A DNA stretch of 64,000 nucleotides from Tildeniella nuda ZEHNDER 1965/U140 (GTDB lineage Bacteria > Cyanobacteriota > Cyanobacteriia > Leptolyngbyales > Leptolyngbyaceae). The stretch's first letter is position 1. Each line of letters starts with the position of its first letter. The notes below the pieces were generated by a model that searched no databases, was not told the origin of the DNA, and worked only from the letters and a program-made list of their open reading frames with translations. The stretch is taken from NCBI GenBank assembly GCA_019358895.1, contig JAHHIG010000024.1, positions 1 to 64,000 of the forward strand. Reading direction: 5' to 3'. Shown here piece by piece: positions 51,426 through 62,648 of this stretch. The translations under genes were made by a program, and so were the position numbers.

Positions 51426-52661
51426 ATGGCAACCATCAACGACAACTACCTCAAACTCAAAGCGGGCTATCTGTTCCCTGAAATTGCGCGACGGGTAACC
51501 GCCTTTGCAGAAGCGAATCCTGGCGCGAAGGTGATTCGGCTAGGCATCGGCGATGTGACGGAACCGCTACCAGAAGCCTGTCGCACTGCCATGATTCGCG
51601 CTGTAGAAGACATGGGCGATCGCGCTAATTTCAAAGGCTACGGTCCAGAGCAGGGTTATGTATGGCTGCGGGAGAAAATTGCCCAGCACGATTTTCAATC
51701 ACGCGGTTGCAACATTGATGCATCCGAAATCTTTGTCTCCGATGGCTCCAAGTGCGACTGCGGCAACATTCTCGATATTTTTGGCAACAACAACAGCATT
51801 GCGGTTACCGATCCGGTCTATCCCGTCTATGTCGATACCAACGTCATGGCAGGCAATACAGGTGATGCCAATGAGAAGGGCGAATACGGTGGCTTAGTCT
51901 ATCTGCCAATTACCGCCGATAATCAGTTCACTGCTGCCATTCCGACTCAAAAAGTCGATTTAATTTATTTGTGCTTCCCTAACAATCCTACAGGCGCAAC
52001 TGCCAGTAAAGAACATCTGCAAGCCTGGGTGGATTACGCCCGATCGCACGGCTCCATCATTTTCTTTGATGCTGCCTACGAAGCATTCATCACCGATCCA
52101 GCGATTCCCCATTCGATCTATGAAATTGAAGGGGCGAGGGAGTGCGCGATCGAATTCCGCTCCTTTTCCAAAAACGCAGGCTTTACGGGCACCCGTTGCG
52201 CGTTAACAGTCGTGCCCAAAACCCTCACTGCCAAAGCCGCTGACGGCTCTAATGTCGAGCTTTGGAAACTGTGGAATCGTCGTCAATCCACCAAATTTAA
52301 TGGCGTTTCGTACATCGTGCAGCGCGGAGCCGAAGCGGTGTATACACCAGAAGGACAGGCGCAAATCAAAGCGCTGGTCAGCTTCTACATGGAGAATGCC
52401 AAAATTATTCGTGAACAATTGACCGCTGCTGGAATCGCTGTCTACGGCGGTGTGAACGCACCCTATGTGTGGGTACAAACGCCCAACGGACTCTCCAGTT
52501 GGGATTTCTTCGATAAGCTGCTGCAAACTTGCAATGTCGTCGGCACACCCGGTTCTGGTTTTGGCGCAGCGGGTGAAGGCTACTTCCGCATTTCAGCATT
52601 CAACAGCCGTGCCAATGTGGAAGAGGCAATGAAGCGAATTACGGAGACGTTTAAGATGTAA
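51426..52661 (+). CDS. dapL: LL-diaminopimelate aminotransferase
   Basis: An enzyme of 411 residues that converts tetrahydrodipicolinate to LL-diaminopimelate in lysine and cell-wall synthesis. It is a fold-type I PLP enzyme with [49 protein letters not shown], and the PLP lysine in [15 protein letters not shown]. Length is typical of the plant/cyanobacterial DapL. The ATG at 51426 begins [20 protein letters not shown]. It marks the left border of the AT-rich accessory segment. Confidence 0.96.
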
Positions 52662-52741
52662 GTAGTCATAATGATTAGAGGTGTTGATTACCTTTCAACG
52701 CTTCTAATTATTATCTAAATGAACATTTTGTGGAGAAGATT

Positions 52742-53800
52742 ATGCTAAGTAGCACTTTGAATATAATTGAAGCAAAAAAAGTCACCACAACTTTTGGTGA
52801 TATACCTGTTCATACTTTTCAAATTAAAGTTAAAGATGCTGTTTTTATTCAGTATGTTGCAGCAAGAGGTCGGGATGATGAGGAAGGTGCTGTTCAAAGA
52901 TTATTGAGTAAGAGGAGAATCTCTTCAATAAGAGATTATATTTTAGAGGGAAATAATTTTTTCAATACGTTTATCCTAAACTGGACGGACAAAAACCATA
53001 CACCTAGAATAGGAGATGATCTAATTGAGCTACCGATCATCTCTGCTGCTGCTCAAGTTATAGACGGTCAACATAGACTTGCAGGGTTTGAGGCGGCTAT
53101 GCGTGATGATTCATCTGTAGGTGAACGGCACATACTGGCATCGCTTTGCATGAAGTTGACAACTAAAGAAGCCGCTAGAATATTTTTAAACATAAATTCT
53201 GAGCAGAAGCCTGCTCCCAAGAGCTTAATCTATGATCTCTTTGGCGAAGTTATCGAAGATAAGCAGTATGCGATTAATAGAGCGAATGATATTGCAGAAA
53301 GCTTAAACACAAATCCTGACTCACCATACTATAGCTCAATCAGATATCCCGGAAAACCAATCAATAGAGGGAGCCTTGAATTATCGACTATTGTATCAGC
53401 CCTAAAGCCACATTTAGAAGCTGAGGGAGTATTCAACAAGCTAAATCTAAAACACTTAGACTACCAGAAAAGTACTGTCACCAATTATTTTGCAGCAATA
53501 AAGTATTTCTATGATCGGGAAAAGCTCTGGACGGTTAAGACTAAAAATCCTTTCTTAAAGAGTTCGGGATTTAATGGAGCGATTGACCACTTAACAGAAA
53601 AACTCTTGTATAAGTGTGCCGAAAGAAGATCGTTCAGTGTTGACACAATGATACAGTTTCTTGCCTTGGATAAAGATCAGCTGTTAATTCTAGATATGAT
53701 AAAATCTCTTGATGGTAAAACTGCAAGGAAGAAAGTAAAAGAATATTTTGATAATCACCTGATGGGTGAACTGCCAGGACAAGACGATTATGAGTTTTAA
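52742..53800 (+). CDS. DGQHR-domain protein (DndB/DpdB-like)
   Basis: A protein of 352 residues. The DGQHR signature sits at residues 108-112 (AQVIDGQHRLAGFEAAM), with RRISSIRDYI upstream and IFLNINSEQKPAP downstream, as in the DGQHR superfamily. Known members are DndB, which regulates DNA phosphorothioation, and DpdB of the 7-deazaguanine DNA-modification system. No dnd or dpd genes accompany it. The ATG at 52742 has GGAG six bases upstream. The base composition is markedly AT-rich compared with flanking genes, and HIP1 sites are absent, indicating recent transfer. A DNA-modification or defence role is inferred. Confidence 0.85.
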   Translation: MLSSTLNIIEAKKVTTTFGDIPVHTFQIKVKDAVFIQYVAARGRDDEEGAVQRLLSKRRISSIRDYILEGNNFFNTFILNWTDKNHTPRIGDDLIELPIISAAAQVIDGQHRLAGFEAAMRDDSSVGERHILASLCMKLTTKEAARIFLNINSEQKPAPKSLIYDLFGEVIEDKQYAINRANDIAESLNTNPDSPYYSSIRYPGKPINRGSLELSTIVSALKPHLEAEGVFNKLNLKHLDYQKSTVTNYFAAIKYFYDREKLWTVKTKNPFLKSSGFNGAIDHLTEKLLYKCAERRSFSVDTMIQFLALDKDQLLILDMIKSLDGKTARKKVKEYFDNHLMGELPGQDDYEF

Positions 53801-54602
53801 CCGTTCACAAGCTCAAATAGCATGTGAGTTAATATTTTCTTGCTCAAACAATGAGCAATTCATCTCTAAAAAAGACACATTTGAAGCCCACGTCTTTAGC
53901 GAAAAAGAGATCGAAAATATTTTGAGCGGTCTGAAGATTGATGTATTCCATTTGTATGTAAAAGGCATACATAGCCTTTTTGAAGCAATTTTGTCTATTA
54001 AAAACAAGTATTATTCGTGGGCAGTAATAAAGCTTTACTATTCTAACTATTATTTTCTAAAGAGTAGTTTGGGAATCAACGGACACACTGTTTTAAGGTG
54101 CAAAACTCTATATCTACTGAAGATCTTGAAAGGAGAATCTGCTGTAAAGAAGAGTGGGCAAAGATACAAGGGCGATCATAAATTTGTAATTAGTATTTAC
54201 GAAGATATTTTCAGTCAGACAGATATTTTGCAATCTAACCAAATTGATGAACGGAATCCATCCACCTGGTTGATGGACAAAAGAGAGCAAATAAATTACA
54301 AAGAGCTTGAATTTCACGACCCAGTATGCACTGAGATTATGCAAGTAGTGGACGACTATGTAAATAGAAAAAAATTACATGAATTGCTTAGACTGTATTT
54401 TGATGACGAGAGCTATCTATACTGTTTTCAGCCTGATCACGCCTGTTTAGCGTTACCTCTCAAGAGAGCATCTTTAACATATGAAGAACTAAGCCGTGCT
54501 GGACTCGGCACGGAATTAGCAAAAGAAAAACGAGATTTATTGCTCAGCATAGTTCGGAGAATTGATAAATCAAAATATCTCTTTACACAGCTATTAGCGT
54601 AG
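53790..54602 (+). CDS. HEPN-like partner protein of the DGQHR gene
   Basis: A protein of 270 residues, unrecognised by name. Residues about 58-92 (KGIHSLFEAILSIKNKYYSW then KLYYSNYYFLKSSL) have the helical pattern of HEPN/MAE_28990-like domains, including the YYS.Y motif, though a clear Rx4-6H catalytic motif is not seen. The start ATG at 53790 overlaps the DGQHR gene by 11 bases, so the two are translationally coupled. It shares the AT-rich composition. Together they look like a two-gene system of unknown type; the HEPN label is inference. Confidence 0.55.
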   Translation: MSFNRSQAQIACELIFSCSNNEQFISKKDTFEAHVFSEKEIENILSGLKIDVFHLYVKGIHSLFEAILSIKNKYYSWAVIKLYYSNYYFLKSSLGINGHTVLRCKTLYLLKILKGESAVKKSGQRYKGDHKFVISIYEDIFSQTDILQSNQIDERNPSTWLMDKREQINYKELEFHDPVCTEIMQVVDDYVNRKKLHELLRLYFDDESYLYCFQPDHACLALPLKRASLTYEELSRAGLGTELAKEKRDLLLSIVRRIDKSKYLFTQLLA

Positions 54603-54717: not shown

Positions 54718-55053
54718 TTATTTGTTTCGCAATTGACGTTGAGCGAGAAGACGATCGCGTAATCCTTTAGACGGAAACCGACGCTCATTTTCAGCACGAA
54801 CTTCTTGAGCCAATTCTTGACGCTGCTGTAAATAAACCTCGACATCACTTTGGTGCCGTAAGTAATAGCTAATAACAGCATAGACATCCGCCAAATCAAG
54901 TGAGGAATATTGTTCTACAATACCCTCGGCTGTCGCTCCTTGCTTAAATTCAAACACAATTGTATCCAGAGGTACCCGCGTACCACGGACAAGGATGACG
55001 TTATCGGGGTTGACTATAAGCGGTGTTGGTTCGGTAGTGATTGTTAAATTCAT
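54718..55053 (-). CDS. DUF433 antitoxin-like protein
   Basis: A protein of 111 residues. The DUF433 domain is seen in NVILVRGTRVPLDTIVFEFK and QYSSLDLADVYAVISYYLRH, a winged-helix DNA-binding fold typical of antitoxins paired with DUF5615 PIN-like toxins. The C-terminal RFPSKGLRDRLLAQRQLR is basic. Here the toxin gene is divergent rather than downstream. Confidence 0.8.
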   Translation of the reverse strand: MNLTITTEPTPLIVNPDNVILVRGTRVPLDTIVFEFKQGATAEGIVEQYSSLDLADVYAVISYYLRHQSDVEVYLQQRQELAQEVRAENERRFPSKGLRDRLLAQRQLRNK

Positions 55054-55116
55054 AGTCCTAGATGGTGCTCTTTAAAGCTTAGTTTATGTTCGCCAATCAG
55101 CAAGGAGCTTTGTGCG

Positions 55117-55461
55117 GTGCCCGTTAAATTTCTGATTGACGAAAACTTTAAGAGCGCTATTGTGCGAGGGTTGCTTCAGCAACCAGGACTTGATCTTATC
55201 CGGGTGCAAGATGTCGGTTTGCTTGGAGCGAGCGATGCAATTATTCTAGAGTGGGCAGCAAAAGAAGGACGAGTTCTACTTACTCACGACGTTAACACGA
55301 TTACCAAATATGCGTATGAGCGCTTGGTTGGAGGGCTAGTGATGCCCGGTGTGATTGAGGTTAAACAAGATGCATCAGTTGGTCGAATAATCCACGACAT
55401 CTTACTCTTAGCGGAATTTGAAGAAGACTGTCAAGGGCAGGTTCTTTACTTACCGTTATGA
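55117..55461 (+). CDS. DUF5615 PIN-like toxin
   Basis: A protein of 114 residues with the DUF5615 (PIN-like, Mut7-C-related) pattern: KFLIDENFKSAIVRGLL, VQDVGLLGASDAIILEWA and VLLTHDVNTITKYAYERL, with conserved acidic residues of a PIN active site. The start is GTG 55117, with AAGGAG nine bases upstream. It lies divergent to the DUF433 gene, with a 63-base shared promoter region. Confidence 0.8.
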   Translation: MPVKFLIDENFKSAIVRGLLQQPGLDLIRVQDVGLLGASDAIILEWAAKEGRVLLTHDVNTITKYAYERLVGGLVMPGVIEVKQDASVGRIIHDILLLAEFEEDCQGQVLYLPL

Positions 55462-56830: not shown

Positions 56831-58579
56831 ATGCTTCAAGGGTGGATTCAAATTGCCTTAACGCTACTCATTATTGTGGCGATCACTCCCTTCTTTGGGA
56901 GGTATATTGCTCGTGTCTTTCAGGAGCAGCGCACTCTGCTCGACCCCCTTCTCAACCCGGTAGAGCGGTTGCTCTATGGCTTAGTGGGTGTGCGAGGCAA
57001 AGAAGACATGACAGGCTGGCAATATGCGCGATCGATCCTGTACAGCAACATCGTAATGGGGCTGTTGATTTTTGGTATCATTGCGAGTCAGGGTTGGCTA
57101 CCGCTAAATCCCACAGGCGTAGCGGCTCCCACCTGGGATACAACGCTGCATACGACAATTTCATTTATTACTAACACCAACCAGCAGCACTATTCGGGTG
57201 AAACCTACTTGAGCTATGCCAGTCAGATGCTGGGGTTAGGCTACCACATGTTTACCTCAGCTGCGACCGGATTGGCGGTAGGCATTGTGTTTATCCGAGG
57301 CTTGACGGGGCGACCGCTCGGTAATTTTTATGTCGATTTGATTCGAGGGATTACGCGCATTCTGCTACCGATTACTATTGTGGGCGCGATCGTTCTGCTG
57401 GCGGCAGGCGTGCCAGAAACGCTAGCAGGTCCAGTTGTCGTTCCCACTCTAGAAGATCCAGCTATCAGTCAGGCGATCGCGCGTGGTCCGGTGGCTCATT
57501 TCGAGATCATTAAAGAGTTGGGTGAGAACGGTGGTGGCTTCTTTGCCATCAACTCGGCGCATCCGTTTGAAAACCCGAATGCGTTTGTGAATCTGCTTCA
57601 GCTTGTGGCAATTCTGAGTATTCCGTCCTCGCTGATTTATACCTATGGTATTTACGCCAACAACCTCAAGCAGGCGTGGTTGGTGTACTTGATTCCGTTC
57701 TCAATTCTGGTCGGTTTTATCGTTATTACAGCGATCGGAGAATATAACGGTAATCCGGCTGTGAATGGGCTGTTAGGAGTTGATCAGGCTCCGAATCTGG
57801 AAGGGAAAGAAGTCCGGTTTGGCTGGGCGCAATCTGCCCTGTATGCCGTGATTACAACTGCCAGTATGTGTGGTGCCGTCAATAGCTTTCACGACTCCTT
57901 CATGCCCAACGGTGGCTTCTCTACCCTGTCCAATATGTTTTTGCAAATTGTGTTTGGTGGACAGGGAACTGGCACTGCGTATCTGTTTGCCTACCTGCTG
58001 CTGACGGTGTTTGTCACCGGGTTGATGGTCGGGCGCACGCCAGAATTTTTGGGGCGCAAGATTGAAAAGCGTGAAGTGGTGCTGGCTAGCTTTTTGATTT
58101 TGCTGGTACATCCGATCGCCATTCTGATTCCGGGCGCGATTACCCTTGCCTTCCCCGATCAGCTCGCTGGGATCAGTAACCCTGAGTATCACGGCTTGTC
58201 TCAGGTGCTTTACGAGTATGCCTCGGCGGCTGCCAATAATGGCTCTGGCTTTGAGGGCTTAGGCGATTCCCAACCGTCTCCCTTTGCCATCGCGGGTGGC
58301 GCGACCACTACGACCAACGCCTTGTGGTGGAACCTGAGTACCTGCTTCAGCCTGCTAGCAGGGCGATACGTGCCGATCGTCGCGCTGCTGCTGCTAGCAG
58401 ATAGTATGGCGCGGAAGCAACCTGTCCCAGAAACGACAGGCACATTGCGAACGGATACGGGCTTATTTACCGGAGTCACCCTTGGTGTGATCTTGATTAT
58501 GGGCGCGCTGTCGTTCTTCCCAGTATTGGCACTGGGTCCGATCGCCGAAGCCTTCCAGATTGCTAAAGGCATTGGGTAG
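56831..58579 (+). CDS. kdpA: K+-transporting ATPase subunit A
   Basis: A potassium-channel-like subunit of 582 residues with about ten membrane helices. The four selectivity-filter-type segments are visible, including [14 protein letters not shown] and [21 protein letters not shown]. It works with KdpB, KdpC and KdpF as a high-affinity K+ pump. The ATG at 56831 begins [10 protein letters not shown]; an in-frame TTG at 56813 is less likely. It is the first gene of the operon. Confidence 0.95.
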
Positions 58580-58606
58580 CTGCATTCGTTTTGAGTTTTA
58601 AGTTCA

Positions 58607-58675
58607 TTCTGACTTCTGACTCCTGACTTCTGACTCCTCCCTCTCCCTCTTCACTCCTCACTCCTTACCTTTCAC
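58607..58675. repeat. Short repeats between kdpA and kdpB
   Basis: CTGACTT/CTGACTCC heptamer-type units followed by CTCCCTC/ACTCCTC units fill the 107-base gap inside the operon. Such repeats inside an operon could form RNA structure, but no terminator is seen. Confidence 0.7.
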
Positions 58676-58686
58676 TTCCGACATCT

Positions 58687-60816
58687 ATGCAAACCCCACA
58701 GGATTCTCTTGGTTCCCCTCGTCCTCCTCGTGTTCCTGGTAGTACGCGTGACTCTCGCAAACACACTCCGAAAGTGAATATGAGTGGGTTGTATCAACGG
58801 GCTGTACGCGAATCCTTTACCAAGCTCGATCCGCGCATTCAGGTGCGAAACCCAGTGATGTTCGTGGTCTGGGTCAGCACGATTATCACTTTACTGGTGA
58901 CGATCGACCCGAATCTGTTTGGCACGGTGCAGGCAGATGCAGGGCAACAACGTGTGCTCAATGGATTGATTACAGCCATTTTGTTTTTCACCATCGTATT
59001 TGCCAACTTTGCCGAAGCTGTTGCCGAAGGACGCGGTAAGGCGCAGGCAGACGCATTGCGATCAACGCGCTCGGATACAGTCGCGCGTAAGTTGATGGCG
59101 GATGGTTCTATTCAAGAGGTCAGTTCAACGGCACTACGGCGGGGCGATCGGGTCAAGGTCATTGCTGGTGACATGATTCCGGCGGATGGCGAAGTCATGG
59201 AAGGAGTCGCCTCGGTCGATGAAGCGGCGATTACGGGTGAATCGGCTCCGGTGCTGAAGCAACCTAACAGCGACATTGCGAGTTCTGTCACAGGTGGTAC
59301 GCGTATCCTTTCGGATGAATTGATCATCAGCGTCACGTCTGATCCTGGTCAGGGCTTTATCGATCGCATGATTGCCCTGGTCGAAGGTGCAGAACGTACC
59401 AAAACGCCCAACGAAATCGCTCTAACGGTACTGCTAGCAGTGCTAACGCTAGTGTTTCTGATTGTGGTTTCGACGATTCCACCATTGGCAAACTATGTGC
59501 AATCACCGACTACGATCGCCATTCTGATTTCGCTCCTCGTGGCGCTGATTCCCACCACGATCGGCGGTTTGTTGAGCGCGATCGGGATTGCTGGGATGGA
59601 TCGGGTCGCTCAATTCAACGTTATTGCTACCTCTGGTCGTGCAGTTGAAGCGTGTGGCGATATCAACACACTGGTATTGGACAAAACAGGCACAATCACA
59701 CTTGGCAATCGGCTGGCGGATGAGTTTATTCCTATCAACGGTCACACGGTTGAAGAAGTCGCTCAGATTGCTTTAGCCGCGAGTGTTTTTGATGAAACGC
59801 CAGAAGGTCGATCGATCATCAGCCTTGCAGAAAAGTATCGAGCTACCACCGACTTTAACCCGAAGGATGCAACGGGTGTTGAATTTTCTGCTCGTACCCG
59901 CATGAGTGGCACCGACTTGCCGAATGGAAAAGAAGTGCGAAAAGGGGCAGTCGATGCGATTAAAGGTTTCGTGCGTTCACGAAGTGGCTCCGCAGGAGCT
60001 TCGCGCAGTGGTTCCGTCCCAACTGACCTGGATGATGCTTATGAACGTGTGTCGCGTCTGGGAGGCACTCCGCTTGCCGTCTGCCAGGATAGCGAAATCT
60101 ACGGCGTAATTTACCTCAAAGATGTCGTCAAGGCGGGTTTGCGAGAACGGTTTGACCAACTTCGCCGCATGGGTGTCAAAACGATCATGCTCACAGGCGA
60201 TAACCAGATCACCGCGTCTGTCATTGCTAAAGAAGCAGGCGTAGACGACTTCATCGCCGAAGCCACACCCGAAGACAAGATTGATGTCATTCGCAGAGAG
60301 CAATCGGAAGGCAAGCTGGTTGCTATGACCGGAGACGGCACTAACGATGCACCCGCACTGGCTCAAGCAAACGTGGGTGTAGCGATGAACTCTGGCACTC
60401 AAGCCGCAAAGGAAGCCGCCAATATGGTGGATTTGGACTCTGATCCCACCAAGCTCATTGACCTGGTGACGATCGGCAAACAGCTTCTCATCACTCGTGG
60501 TGCGCTGACGACCTTCTCGATCGCCAACGATATCGCCAAATACTTTGCCATCATTCCCACGATCTTTGCCGCGGCAGGCATCGGCGCACTCAATGTGATG
60601 GGCTTAAAAAGTCCCCAATCGGCAATTATTTCAGCGCTCATTTACAATGCACTGATCATTCCTGCCTTGATTCCGCTGGCACTTAAAGGCGTACAGTTTC
60701 GTCCCCTGACGGCTGATCAACTCCTGCGCCGCAACATCCTGCTCTACGGTGTGGGCGGTGTGATTGCACCCTTCATCGCCATCAAAATCATCGACGTACT
60801 CATTCCCTTTTCGTAG
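58687..60816 (+). CDS. kdpB: K+-transporting ATPase subunit B
   Basis: A P-type ATPase of 709 residues, the energising subunit of the Kdp complex. Motifs are [12 protein letters not shown] (actuator), [13 protein letters not shown] (phosphorylated Asp), [11 protein letters not shown] in the nucleotide-binding domain, and [25 protein letters not shown]. Membrane helices lie as expected. The nucleotide-binding domain contains an extra Ser/Arg/Gly-rich segment ([17 protein letters not shown]) coded by a palindromic repeat at 59981-60015. Confidence 0.96.
59981..60015. repeat. Palindromic repeat inserted within kdpB
   Basis: GCTCCGCAGGAGC (59987-59999) is a 5-bp palindrome with a 3-base centre, flanked by near-direct repeats AGTGGCTCC and AGTGGTTCC. 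It encodes the additional [10 protein letters not shown] residues in the nucleotide-binding domain of KdpB, absent from the E. coli protein. It looks like an in-frame insertion of a dispersed repeat. Confidence 0.65.
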
Positions 60817-60923
60817 CTCTCCTGCTAGCGGTCAGCGGTCAGCTTTTTTAGCCTTTAGCCTACTGCTTTGCAGAAGCAAGCTACATCGTTCAGCTTTTAT
60901 CCTTAGCCTCCTGACTCCTAACT

Positions 60924-61205
60924 ATGAAACATCTCCCCGATCGACCCTCCCTTCTGTCCACTCAAAGTATCGCCCCAGCCGCCGAGACCCTGACCGAACT
61001 TTGGGCTGAGTGGCGCAGACAGAAACTGCCGCTCTATCTCTTTCTAGGACTGTGCTTCAATCTGGTGCTGGCACCTGCCGTGTTTGCTGCCACGGGTGGC
61101 GATTTGTCTCGCACTCAGTCGTACTGGCTAGGGGCACTTGGCTTAGTGACGATCGCCCTGGCGATTTACCTCTTTTTCGTCATGTTCGTACCGGAGAGAT
61201 TCTAA
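60924..61205 (+). CDS. kdpF: KdpF-like (KdpG) subunit
   Basis: A protein of 93 residues with two hydrophobic helices (LPLYLFLGLCFNLVLAPAVF and YWLGALGLVTIALAIYLFF) ending in FVPERF, the KdpF-type end. The cyanobacterial kdp operons have such a longer form, called KdpG, between kdpB and kdpC. It overlaps kdpC by one base (TAATG). It is expected to stabilise the KdpABC complex. Confidence 0.8.
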   Translation: MKHLPDRPSLLSTQSIAPAAETLTELWAEWRRQKLPLYLFLGLCFNLVLAPAVFAATGGDLSRTQSYWLGALGLVTIALAIYLFFVMFVPERF

Positions 61206-61867
61206 TGAGTTTTGCGCGTGAGGCAGGTAGAGCCGTTCGATCTACCCTGGTGCTATGGGTTCTAACCGCGATCATTTATCCGTTGATCATGATCGGGATT
61301 GGGCAGGTGATCTTTCCAGTGCAAGCAAATGGGAGCTTAGTTACCAGGACTGGAGCTTACACCAGTAATCCAAGTGAGGCAGTTGGCTCTGCCCTGATTG
61401 GGCAACCGTTTACCTCCGATCGCTACTTCAATAGTCGCCCCAGCACGACGAGCTACAGTACGGCTGATTCAAAAGCCGATGAAGCGGGCGTATTGAAAAC
61501 AGGTGTTTCTGGTGCTAGTAACTTAGCGCCCAGTAATCCAGCACTGCTCGATCGCATGAAAGGCAAAGCTGATCCTGACCCCGAAAAGGCGATCGAAGGC
61601 GACATTCCCCGACTGCAAAAAGCGGGTATCAAGCCAACGGCGGATCTGGTCTATACCTCTGGTTCCAGCCTTGACCCGCACATCACGCCAGGTGGTGCTG
61701 CTGCCCAAATTGCACGGGTTGCCAAAACACGAGGACTCCAACCCAATCAGTTGGAAGACTTGATCAAACAAAATACCGATGGTCGCTTCCTGGGCATTTT
61801 TGGCGAACCGGGTGTAAACGTGCTGAAGCTCAATCTGGCTTTGGATGCCTTGAAGCCTGCGAGTTAG
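61205..61867 (+). CDS. kdpC: K+-transporting ATPase subunit C
   Basis: A protein of 220 residues with one N-terminal membrane helix (TLVLWVLTAIIYPLIMIGIG) and a periplasmic domain containing GQPFTSDRYFNSRPS, SGSSLDPHITPGGA and GEPGVNVLKLNLALD. This matches KdpC, the assembly and affinity subunit. It overlaps the previous gene, so A-B-F-C is one operon. Confidence 0.95.
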   Translation: MSFAREAGRAVRSTLVLWVLTAIIYPLIMIGIGQVIFPVQANGSLVTRTGAYTSNPSEAVGSALIGQPFTSDRYFNSRPSTTSYSTADSKADEAGVLKTGVSGASNLAPSNPALLDRMKGKADPDPEKAIEGDIPRLQKAGIKPTADLVYTSGSSLDPHITPGGAAAQIARVAKTRGLQPNQLEDLIKQNTDGRFLGIFGEPGVNVLKLNLALDALKPAS

Positions 61868-61880
61868 TGAAGAACCGACC

Positions 61881-61902
61881 CCCCGACTTTTTCAAGTCGG
61901 GG
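61881..61902. terminator. Hairpin after kdpC
   Basis: CCCCGACTT/AAGTCGGGG forms a perfect 9-bp stem with a TTTC loop, just after kdpC. There is no T-run after it, so it may be a transcript-end stabiliser or a weak terminator. Confidence 0.45.
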
Positions 61903-61925
61903 AGCTAACCCCCAGATGTCTTGAT

Positions 61926-62420
61926 ATGTATAGCTTTCTTTCGAGCCGCGCCCATTTACCGCGTTCTCTAGCGAATGCTTTGTCCTCTGAGAGTCTGCAT
62001 CCTCGCCCTTTCAGCCTGTGTGATGGGGTCTTTCACGATCGCTACCGCATTCTCAAACCACTGACGGAGAGGGGGAATTCCTCCACGATCGCCAAAGCAT
62101 TCATCCTGACATCAAACCCACTAATATCATTCGTCGTAGAAGCAGCGGCTCTCAACCTCAAATGCATCAGTTAATGTTGGTTGATTTTGGTGCGGCAACG
62201 CAAGTTGTCTGTGCCAGGACATCGACAGAAACCATGATTGGAAGTGCTGAGTATGCTGCACCAGAGCAGATTCGCGATCGAGCCGTCTTTGCCATTCCTG
62301 ACTCTCGCTATGCCTTCACAGTCGAATGCTATTCCTTCAAACGTCAACTTCACAGGAGCGATTCGGTAAATTTCAACCGTGAGGATAACTGTTTAAATGA
62401 TTTTCCACAAAGCTGAAAAC
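61926..62420 (+). pseudogene. Decayed Ser/Thr protein kinase gene
   Basis: Three kinase landmarks remain but in different frames: FHDRYRILKPLTERG (P-loop region, 62031), HPDIKPTNIIRR (catalytic loop, 62102), and LVDFGAA then GSAEYAAPEQIRDRAVF (activation segment, from 62174). The roughly 100 codons normally between the P-loop and the catalytic loop are missing, and the frame shifts between them. After APEQ the reading degenerates. It is a remnant of a Hanks-type kinase. Confidence 0.75.
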
Positions 62421-62648
62421 CAGATTAACTTGATTCAGAAATTGCGGACTTATTTTCCAGACCTGTTCAAAACTGAGGCGAGAGAAGCGGCTGATGTTGT
62501 TTTTAGCGTGATGTTGATTTTCATGCTGACCTGCATTGGCTCAATGCTCCTCATTTGCTTTTTCTTTGAGATGGATCGGCGATCGCCCCCACCACAGCCA
62601 GCTATGCAGCAGTCACTGCTGTCCACTGCTAATACACCCATCCAATAA
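62397..62648 (+). CDS. Possible small membrane protein
   Basis: An ORF of 83 codons with one hydrophobic segment (VVFSVMLIFMLTCIGSMLLI) flanked by charged residues and a Pro/Gln-rich tail. I see no ribosome binding site of note and no known domain. It may be the residual C-terminus of the decayed kinase locus or a real small protein. Confidence 0.3.
   Translation: MIFHKAENQINLIQKLRTYFPDLFKTEAREAADVVFSVMLIFMLTCIGSMLLICFFFEMDRRSPPPQPAMQQSLLSTANTPIQ

Follow-up and report, generated by a model that had tools for sequence, protein, structure and literature searches.

A DGQHR-domain gene and its HEPN-family partner form a linked, horizontally spread pair: a possible defence or toxin-antitoxin-like module

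The gene pair and its composition

The window, here meaning the whole 64,000-nucleotide stretch of Tildeniella nuda ZEHNDER 1965/U140 DNA that was analysed, contains two consecutive genes (Table 1) that an earlier inspection of the letters alone, the sequence-only reading, had singled out as an AT-rich module of a DGQHR gene and a HEPN-like partner overlapping by 11 bases. The overlap is exactly 11 bp and suggests that translation of the two genes is coupled.

Table 1. Features of the gene pair and of the region immediately upstream
Feature	Position	Strand	Basis or remark
Inverted repeat of 20 bp, 7-nt loop	52668..52714	.	End is 27 bp before gene 1 start codon
GGAG, probable ribosome-binding site of gene 1, six bases 5' of ATG	52732..52735	+	Sequence; inferred
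Gene 1, DGQHR-domain protein, 352 aa	52742..53800	+	ATG to stop, read from sequence
Overlap of 11 bp, gene 2 ATG inside gene 1 end	53790..53800	+	Sequence
Gene 2, HEPN-family partner, 270 aa, proposed RNase effector	53790..54602	+	ATG to stop, read from sequence

The pair is indeed more AT-rich than its surroundings, with 36.4% GC versus 51.5% for the remainder of the window, and the eight lowest-GC 1861-bp steps among those listed all overlap it. GC3 is 0.32 and 0.35 for the two genes versus 0.54–0.59 in three other window genes. The lack of HIP1 sites (GCGATCGC) had also been taken as a sign of recent arrival. No site falls within the pair, but at the density of the window this has a probability of approximately 0.10, and a longer HIP1-free gap (57473–62579) is occupied by genes of native GC content. 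As the absence is real but not significant, it was dropped as evidence of arrival.

The inverted repeat upstream of gene 1 could be a terminator of the upstream gene, an operator or a 5' hairpin. No common counterpart was found in the upstream regions of 29 relatives, and a conserved operator upstream of the pair was therefore rejected. Three relatives (L028, L003 and L025) have a repeat at a similar distance that no more than one shuffle in 40 equalled, which we grade as weak.

The DGQHR protein has a ParB/Srx fold

The motif read earlier in the product of gene 1, VIDGQHRLAG, is present, with DGQHR at residues 108–112, and the protein is a member of the TIGR03187 DGQHR domain family (96 bits, cut-off 58.85, E 3e-27). 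PF14072 is also matched over its cut-off (47 bits, cut-off 29.1). A ParB/sulfiredoxin (Srx)-fold domain spanning approximately residues 24–156 is followed by a helical C-terminal part. The ParB CTPase 7bnk aligns with the model (pLDDT 91) at Z 9.4 over 95 residues, and BrxU 7p9k at Z 4.6. Foldseek returned no significant match for this model, and the ParB assignment was made from VIA-align, sequence profiles and families rather than from Foldseek alone. PF03235 scored 13.5 bits, under its cut-off of 33.2. We propose that the protein is an NTP-driven sensor or regulator.

Alternatively, the DGQHR protein might itself nick modified invader DNA or degrade NTPs on it, with the HEPN protein as an accessory or backup. 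The ParB/Srx fold and a weak GmrSD_N match (E 0.081) are consistent with such restriction at the DNA level, as are the nickase/NTPase activity reported for ParB/Srx members and the nucleotide depletion proposed for DndB in the available parts of two papers (PMC10853773, PMC12839542). However, neither Pfam nor structural alignment recognised a separate nuclease domain in the protein, and related long DGQHR proteins add in front a stretch that by eye resembles a PD-(D/E)xK nuclease, suggesting that the core has no nuclease of its own. We consider this explanation distinctly unlikely.

The partner is a HEPN protein with a candidate non-canonical active site

The product of gene 2 had been called HEPN-like from its helical pattern. 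Pfam gives only a hint of this, as the window protein alone matches PF05168 at E 0.051 (14.2 bits, under the 22-bit cut-off), but fold and family profile confirm its HEPN identity. In VIA-align, the five structures that match its model (pLDDT 96.3, pTM 0.93) best are all HEPN: 2hsb (Z 12.2, rmsd 2.9, 124 aligned), 1wol (Z 10.2), 1ufb (Z 9.7), 4nqf (Z 9.5) and 3o10 (Z 9.1), and AbiV 9bj7 follows at Z 6.5. The same model had no significant Foldseek match (2hsb at rank 4, E 0.6), and the HEPN call was made from VIA-align, sequence profiles and families.

The partner family profile matches the HEPN chains 9xbd and 9xbc in the PDB at E 1e-4. Among the 70 partners, 34 match PF05168 at E <= 0.1, the best at 1.6e-4. 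When run over 386 genomes from the phylum of the window, the family profile returned eight short matches in 6 genomes, with E values down to 4e-8. Each lies in a frame of 131–143 aa that adjoins a nucleotidyltransferase-like frame with a GS...SD(I/L)D motif (six by pattern and two by eye). No PADLOC or NCBIfam model matches the partner at E 1. Assignment to the MAE_28990 HEPN family (PF18737) was rejected: at E 0.1 the 70 partners matched 14 families, and this was not one of them.

Conservation was read from two 70-row alignments (A6 and A7), drawn from the 71 partner-bearing loci among L024–L124. Short or decayed copies (L064, L067 and L104), duplicates (L040, L106 and L108) the 433-aa L070, and L073, which matches more weakly than E 1e-20, were omitted, and the window, L003, L006, L014, L015, L020 and L023 were added. 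Among these relatives, which extend down to 12% identity, Arg165 and Tyr170 are invariant (70/70) and His130 is present in 69 of 70; Tyr83 and Trp77 are also conserved. Helix 2 carries a YY..FY signature, and Arg165, in helix 3, belongs to an R-x3-(D/N)-Y motif. His130 lies in the insert that joins helices 2 and 3, at the start of an extra helix (129–141) that the model places between helices 75–96 and 157–171.

The classical Rx4-6H motif is not present in the window protein, which has N169-Y170; position 169 is N, Q or H in 67 of 70. As the classical catalytic His is absent, the enzyme could be inactive. For AF0298 and AbiV, the available part of Anantharaman 2013 (PMC3710099) proposes an alternative RNase site made up of a second conserved His, from the helix 2–3 insert, and an Arg. 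By that definition the partner has both elements, a conserved insert His and the motif Arg. It belongs to the non-canonical HEPN branch, with R165 and H130 as the predicted active site, of the AF0298/AbiV type.

The two genes are linked and co-inherited

The sequence-only reading would have been refuted by an unrelated partner that does not recur next to DGQHR genes in other genomes, but the partner is a HEPN protein and does recur there. In 69 of the 70 loci with a strong partner match, it immediately follows the DGQHR gene on the same strand; with the 11-bp overlap, this is the two-gene operon arrangement of type II toxin-antitoxin systems. Distances in the DGQHR and partner trees are correlated (0.86, reached by 0 of 300 shuffles), and 36 of 67 splits are common to both trees. 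The pair is thus tightly linked and co-inherited.

The neighbourhood survey that had been suggested found the same partner at 58 of the 80 best DGQHR genome loci, in nine phyla, a figure biased by a query alignment built from partner-bearing DGQHR genes. Among viral DGQHR loci, 13 of 21 have it, the exceptions being L109, L111, L117, L119 and L121–L124. Searching from the partner instead, an intact partner adjoined a DGQHR gene in 7/7 cyanobacterial genomes and in 2/2 viral contigs, one of which is the source of L106.

The pair is found in 1 of 42 genomes of its own family and in 7 of the 386 genomes of the phylum sample, two of these copies being broken, and decayed copies occur in several genomes. 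In one (G471), the DGQHR frame is open and a transposase-like frame splits the HEPN gene into two pieces.

Horizontal spread and carriage by phages and plasmids

Tree placement and composition, more than the missing HIP1 sites, support the horizontal arrival that had been proposed, and the window copy probably has a source outside the cyanobacteria. The pair is carried by the Pf phage PfAC19, next to a repressor gene, by an Acinetobacter phage, near cI, and by plasmids. A DGQHR match was found in 37 plasmid and 3 phage records, of which 8 and 2, respectively, were examined in detail. The partner is not universal in these ten annotated records: it is present in four (L014, L015, L020 and L023) and was not found in six (L016–L019, L021 and L022). 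With the window partner alone as query, there was no match in viral contigs, nor any in plasmids by tblastn; despite these null direct searches, distant partners were later seen beside DGQHR genes.

In another member of the genus (G596), the same aminotransferase is followed by approximately 950 bp, beyond which the DUF433/DUF5615 region recurs with 80% identity. The 950 bp stretch holds a frame that looks by eye like a fragment of a repressor. Downstream of the aminotransferase, the other five genus members have nothing that matches the window. A clean empty site was rejected, as the slot is variable across the genus members and the insertion ends are unreadable.

The distribution bears on a reading in which the DGQHR protein regulates transcription or DNA modification, helped by a HEPN protein that binds nucleotides but has no catalytic activity. 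The missing classical His, the inverted repeat that precedes the pair in the window and the binding of DndB to its own promoter, as reported in the available part of PMC4507180, would fit this. Patchy occurrence, decay, carriage by phages and the strict conservation of R165, H130 and Y170 argue against it, and it appears very improbable.

Neighbouring genes and other DGQHR contexts

No methyltransferase adjoins the pair in the window. In related loci, pairs co-occur with DNA methyltransferases and sometimes with restriction enzymes. A methyltransferase precedes the pair in one largely phage-borne clade, Halomonas alimentaria (L077) has a methyltransferase-DGQHR-HEPN operon, and an N6_N4 methyltransferase is among the immediate neighbours of 10 of 124 proteins, a raw count with no matched control. 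A BglII-like endonuclease and a methyltransferase lie upstream of the pair in L101, and a DpnII-like endonuclease upstream in L095. Several immediate neighbours in the same uncontrolled survey are housekeeping genes (aconitase, ThiC and GcpE).

Another possibility is that the pair is a plain addiction module, in which a HEPN RNase toxin is neutralised by a DGQHR antitoxin that is also an autorepressor, with no specific sensing of an invader. The overlapping or adjacent genes, their mobility and their carriage by plasmids and phages are as expected of such a module. The nucleotidyltransferase-like neighbours of the short HEPN genes matched by profile, as in MNT-HEPN, and the open DGQHR frame beside the split HEPN gene in G471 point the same way. 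Against this, the fold of the DGQHR protein resembles nucleotide-binding ones, its family is associated with DNA modification, related loci add methyltransferase and restriction genes to the pair, and no operator shared by the relatives was found upstream. We regard simple addiction as unlikely, though less so than the other alternatives.

Related DGQHR genes are also linked to a small membrane protein gene upstream, to HNH or GIY-YIG genes, or to methyltransferase/restriction genes. Among the annotated phage and plasmid records, L016–L019 have other small genes upstream of DGQHR, L022 has a GIY-YIG gene and L021 encodes a long protein. In long DGQHR proteins (650 aa or more), Rx4H occurs in the C-terminal part in 17 of 19, versus 4.7 expected by shuffling. 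Weak HEPN_Swt1 matches were found in 3 of 5 long proteins examined, all under cut-off, and Mrr_cat in L088 was likewise under cut-off. A loose pattern for restriction-like stretches in the long proteins was kept out of the counts. Tentatively, the DGQHR ParB/Srx NTPase may be a general platform for sensing invaders to which different effectors can be attached, the pair being its RNase form.

A possible mechanism

We give roughly even odds to the pair being a module for defence, or one resembling toxin-antitoxin systems, whose DGQHR NTPase reads the DNA state and licenses the HEPN RNase. A role in conflict is suggested by carriage on PfAC19, the Acinetobacter phage and plasmids, and by the methyltransferase and endonuclease neighbours in related loci; the sensor role rests on the precedent of the related DGQQR domain in SspE. 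For the pair, we infer NTPase activity, DNA-state sensing, RNase activity, toxicity and its neutralisation, and phage defence. In a resting cell, the HEPN protein would be held inactive by the DGQHR protein. The latter would sense that DNA modification is absent or foreign, or some other sign of an invader, with NTP binding or hydrolysis as the switch, and would then release or activate the HEPN protein. Active HEPN protein would cut RNA, and the cell would stop or die before the phage multiplies.

DGQHR proteins that stand alone are common in annotations and largely lack an explanation, and one large group now has a fixed partner with a candidate site (R165/H130). If the DGQHR protein recognises DNA modification, the pair would act as the suicide arm of a modification-based immunity, with RNA rather than DNA as its target; in Pf and other temperate phages that carry it, it would serve as a weapon of phage against phage. 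If the platform reading is true, it would represent an undescribed, widespread and modular class of immunity that relies on one modification-sensing switch throughout.

Comparison with known systems

Our literature search, outside which subscription papers and preprints mostly lay, found no published description of a two-gene DGQHR–HEPN pair; HEPN-ParB fusions are already known.

The absence of known dnd/dpd genes near the pair extends to the whole genome (96% complete), in which DndC and DndD had only sub-cut-off matches and DpdA none. Gene 1 shares the DGQHR motif and domain with DndB and DpdB, with similarity over part of its length, but scores far under the equivalog cut-offs (22.1/328 and 47.3/300 bits), and reaches 77.5 bits against a cut-off of 450 for TIGR04172 (DGQHR_dnd_1). 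The available parts of the sources report DndB as an operon repressor and DpdB as an ATP-driven modification helper, and neither as a toxin regulator. The N-terminus of DndB has been tied to the HEPN-containing AbiU1/AIPR proteins of abortive infection (PMC3506569, in part).

MNT-HEPN is also a two-gene module, has a HEPN protein with the YY..FY helix 2 signature and R-x3-(D/N)-Y, and is found by the partner family profile. In MNT-HEPN, a PF05168 HEPN is paired with a nucleotidyltransferase, whereas the second member here is a ParB/Srx DGQHR protein, and the window HEPN is approximately double the length and has two strands and additional helices at both termini.

The pNL1 DGQHR protein, presumably Saro_3948 itself, also joins DGQHR to a HEPN-like region. 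Such fusions (Saro_3948-type ParB-HEPN; Anantharaman 2013, in part) differ in being one polypeptide with another type of HEPN, which has a classical Rx4H, and in the extra N-terminal PD-(D/E)xK-like stretch seen by eye. Table 1 of PMC3710099, available in part, also places the MAE_28990 HEPN in an operon with a ParB nuclease and a DNA methylase, and Ribo L-PSP-HEPN in an operon with ParB. The MAE_28990 model matches none of the 70 partners at E 0.1, and the window's pair is without the methyltransferase.

The AbiV/AF0298 type of HEPN gives a structural match to the partner (2hsb at Z 12.2; AbiV 9bj7 lower, at Z 6.5) and has the alternative site of insert His plus Arg. Sequence identity is 10–14%, and AbiV, according to its PDB title, works in a different two-component antiphage system. 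SspE, GmrSD and BrxU (DUF262, DGQQR) have a related nucleotide-binding motif and fold, but their effector is a fused HNH nuclease. In SspE, described in the available part of PMC13251355 as a modification-sensing NTPase switch, the DGQQR domain links the activation of the nuclease to the recognition of phosphorothioate and the hydrolysis of GTP.

Composition and surroundings of the pair

The reading frames of gene 1 and gene 2 have 11 bp in common (53790–53800), as the sequence-only reading had stated. That reading also described the pair as more AT-rich than its neighbours, and this holds: the GC content is 36.4% for the pair vs 51.5% for the rest of the window, and the lowest-GC steps of the pair's length all overlap it. 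Its use of HIP1 absence as a sign of arrival fared less well. The longest HIP1-free gap of the window (57473–62579, 5.1 kb) covers genes of native GC, which we take to be kdpA/kdpB, so the absence of HIP1 is by itself a poor marker of foreign DNA; the transfer itself is likely.

The inverted repeat listed below (z −3.84) has three mismatches. All are G-U in the + strand RNA, so a hairpin paired over all 20 bp is predicted in the transcript; it could either terminate the upstream gene or serve the pair as a 5' element. Adjoining the pair are divergently oriented DUF433 and DUF5615 (PIN-like) genes (54718–55461), probably a toxin-antitoxin pair. In G596, a member of the genus, DUF433/DUF5615 DNA that is ~80% identical follows the same aminotransferase.

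Features of the window and of related DGQHR loci
Feature	Coordinates	Strand	Description
Aminotransferase-like gene (presumed)	51426–52661		upstream of pair
Inverted repeat	52668–52714		20-bp
Gene 1, DGQHR protein	52742 (ATG)–53800 (stop)	+	352 aa
Gene 2, HEPN partner	53790 (ATG)–54602	+	270 aa
DUF433 gene	54718–55053	opposite to pair	downstream
DUF5615 PIN-like gene	55117–55461		downstream of pair
Membrane-protein-like small frames	L085:3501–4007, L096:3236–3853, L097:3385–3978, L099:2529–3131, L109:3363–3974		adjoin a different type of DGQHR gene on its upstream side
Single-chain members			L075, L076, L079–L081, L086–L089, L091–L094, L098, L102, L103, L111, L117, L121, L021

Identity of the two proteins

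The gene 1 product matched TIGR03187 with 96 bits (cut-off 58.85) and also PF14072, which confirms it as a DGQHR family protein, while it scored far below the equivalog cut-offs of DndB, DpdB and DGQHR_dnd_1. In the structure model (pLDDT 91.1, pTM 0.82), residues 24–156 fit ParB CTPase domains (7bnk, Z 9.4, rmsd 2.3, 95 aligned; 6sdk, Z 9.3), and sulfiredoxin 3cyi is a weaker match (Z 6.0). Residues I107 to R112, G115, F148, N152 and L162 are identical in 70/70 aligned relatives, the invariance of the DGQHR stretch and G115 being partly due to how the relatives were selected. The related DGQQR motif in GmrS and SspE has been assigned to NTP binding (PMC4619093; PMC13251355), and that of SspE is reported to be essential for GTP hydrolysis (PMC13251355).

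When the gene 2 product was used as a single query, the sole match was PF05168 (E 0.051); searches of NCBIfam, PADLOC and PHROGs at E 1 were empty. Its model, built with 64 sequences, was very confident (pLDDT 96.3, pTM 0.93). The top five structural matches were all HEPN proteins, namely 2hsb (Z 12.2), 1wol (10.2), 1ufb (9.7), 4nqf (9.5) and sacsin 3o10 (9.1), followed by the ROQ-domain chain 4qik (7.2) and AbiV (6.5). As helical models may reach Z 13 through a common arrangement alone, sequence evidence matters for this assignment. With the partner family profile, two HEPN proteins of known structure were hit at E 1e-4; of the 70 partners themselves, 34 are recognised by PF05168 at E <= 0.1, the strongest at 1.6e-4. 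When 386 genomes from the window's phylum were scanned, the partner profile matched 13 of them: seven with true partners, two of the copies broken, and six that together have eight short matches, with E values from 4e-8 to 8e-6 and in frames of 131–143 aa. All eight short frames adjoin a frame with a nucleotidyltransferase-like motif (six by pattern, two by eye); the name MNT-HEPN for such a module is taken from PMC3710099. Fold and family profile both bear out the earlier HEPN-like description, and we regard the identity of both parts, DGQHR and HEPN, as close to certain.

Three residues are invariant over the 70 partners (R165, Y170 and Y83); H130 occurs in 69 and W77 in 64. With N, Q or H at position 169 (67 of 70 aligned) and the invariant Y170 after R165, the classical HEPN Rx4-6H motif is absent. 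According to Anantharaman et al. 2013 (PMC3710099), AF0298 (2hsb) and AbiV typically lack the motif His; they have another conserved His, located in a helix 2–3 insert, and this residue could pair with the Arg to make an alternative site. In the gene 2 model, H130 lies at the start of helix 129–141, inside the same insert, and as AF0298 is the closest structural match, the predicted RNase activity of the partner is plausible.

Linkage of the two genes

An alignment of eight DGQHR proteins, run once against genome contigs, gave at least 499 relatives, of which 80 were kept. The partner (profile, E < 1e-3) was present at 58 of these 80 loci, a fraction that applies to this branch rather than to all DGQHR genes, as the query genes already had a partner; the 58 take in a duplicate (L040), a truncated locus (L064) and a decayed one (L067). 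The others were 16 with DGQHR proteins of at least 650 aa, called long here, five short ones without the partner (L084, L085, L096, L097 and L099) and L046, which is cut by a contig end. A partner was also found at 13/21 viral loci and in four of ten annotated phage and plasmid DGQHR records examined. Across the 70 loci with E < 1e-9, it lies directly downstream on the same strand in all except L067 (69/70).

Searching for the partner first is a less biased test, and covered overlapping sets of 217 genomes (the family of cyanobacterium G306), 42 (the window's family) and 386 (the phylum sample). All seven intact partners (in G000, G306, G391, G427, G087, G022 and G133) adjoin a DGQHR gene, as do both found in viral contigs, one of which (L106) was already known. 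An intact partner without a DGQHR gene was not seen in the cyanobacterial sets or viral contigs, which, in these small numbers, is as expected of a regulated toxin. The downstream position and the 7/7 adjacency go against the possibility, allowed for in the sequence-only reading, that the partner is not conserved beside DGQHR genes.

Patristic distances in the two protein trees (70 loci) correlate at 0.86, a value reached by 0/300 shuffles, and 36/67 splits are common to both. The three clades tested are present in both trees, with correlations of 0.57–0.77 inside them. We conclude, with a probability of about 0.93, that the pair is a functional unit.

Decayed copies were also encountered in the window's phylum. 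In G471 (L007/L011), the DGQHR frame is open, and a transposase-like frame separates the partner's two pieces. Both genes are broken in G048 (L004) and G328 (L152), and G534 (L009) has a fused remnant of both beside recG.

Spread and genomic context

The tree rows represent nine phyla (Pseudomonadota, Bacillota, Bacteroidota, Cyanobacteriota, Myxococcota, Nitrospirota, Acidobacteriota, Verrucomicrobiota and Thermodesulfobacteriota), to which a distant pair on a Leptospira weilii plasmid adds Spirochaetota. The window's DGQHR protein groups with Polaromonas, Ectothiorhodospira, Pelagicoccus, a Desulfobulbaceae bacterium, Colwellia, a Methylophilaceae bacterium and one further bacterium in a clade of eight rows (support 96/94), nested in a 22-row clade (100/100) where it is the sole cyanobacterium. 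Its identity to the Desulfobulbaceae protein is 56%, vs 35% to that of G306, which is from the window's own class. In the partner tree, the closest row by path is L030, from Bacteroidetes; the two trees therefore disagree on the nearest kin. As only 1/42 genomes of the window's family have the pair, and given the DGQHR tree placement, transfer between phyla is likely, in agreement with the earlier view of the pair as an arrival.

Further distant pairs adjoin a repressor gene in Pf phage PfAC19, follow a methyltransferase gene near cI in an Acinetobacter phage, and lie between umuD and umuC on a Providencia plasmid. The PfAC19 paper gives 'TA; PfsE' for this phage, with no mention of DGQHR (PMC11878078). 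Among the 124 immediate neighbours of 65 loci, N6_N4 methyltransferase was the top Pfam family (10 members); the best 25 of 88 families also included type I/III restriction-like families (2–3 each), phage integrase (2), phage portal (3), aconitase (3) and other housekeeping genes, counts made without a control set, so that no enrichment is claimed. By motif, a methyltransferase is directly upstream at nine loci (L070, L077, L108, L110 and L112–L116) and downstream at one (L095); two of these were confirmed individually. A ten-row clade recovered in both trees (support 100/99 in that of DGQHR) is viral in 7/10 rows and has a methyltransferase in 9/10 (exception L090). In L101:430–4080, with the order methyltransferase, BglII-like endonuclease, DGQHR, HEPN, the pair is appended to a restriction system, and at L095 a DpnII-like endonuclease is upstream of the pair, with one small frame in between. 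A role in conflict is, in our view, probable.

Other DGQHR architectures

Among L024–L124, the genome and viral loci surveyed, 19 DGQHR proteins are long (650 aa or more), and a C-terminal Rx4H is present in 17 of them vs 4.7 expected from shuffling. HEPN_Swt1 was found below cut-off in three of five long proteins tested (L021, L088 and L111; none in L075 and L098), and the N-terminal stretch is, by eye, nuclease-like. A large single-chain family, found in many phyla including archaeal MAGs, combines this stretch with a central DGQHR and a C-terminal Rx4H (Swt1-like HEPN) region. Upstream of DGQHR in four of the loci without a partner and in one viral locus (L109), a frame of 168–205 aa with 3–5 hydrophobic segments is possibly a membrane-effector counterpart of the HEPN pair. 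An HNH gene is upstream of DGQHR in L084 and a GIY-YIG gene downstream in L022. This variety (Rx4H fusions, membrane frames, HNH, GIY-YIG) suggests, as the boldest reading that we keep, that DGQHR is a sensing platform with exchangeable effectors.

Proposed mechanism and comparison with known systems

In the explanation that we favour, the DGQHR protein would sense DNA state by an NTP switch and control the predicted HEPN RNase, which, once active, would halt the cell. We give DNA-state sensing plus RNase activation by the pair an even chance. A precedent is SspE, where a related domain links sensing and hydrolysis to activation (PMC13251355). Alternative precedents are DndB, a repressor of its own operon (PMC4507180), and DpdB, an ATPase serving modification (PMC12839542).

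Our literature search found no description of stand-alone DGQHR genes paired with this HEPN family, of the partner's alternative active site or of the pair's methyltransferase form. HEPN-ParB fusions and operons are already listed in print (PMC3710099, Table 1), and a link between DndB and AIPR/HEPN abortive-infection proteins was proposed earlier (PMC3506569), so this kind of system is already known.
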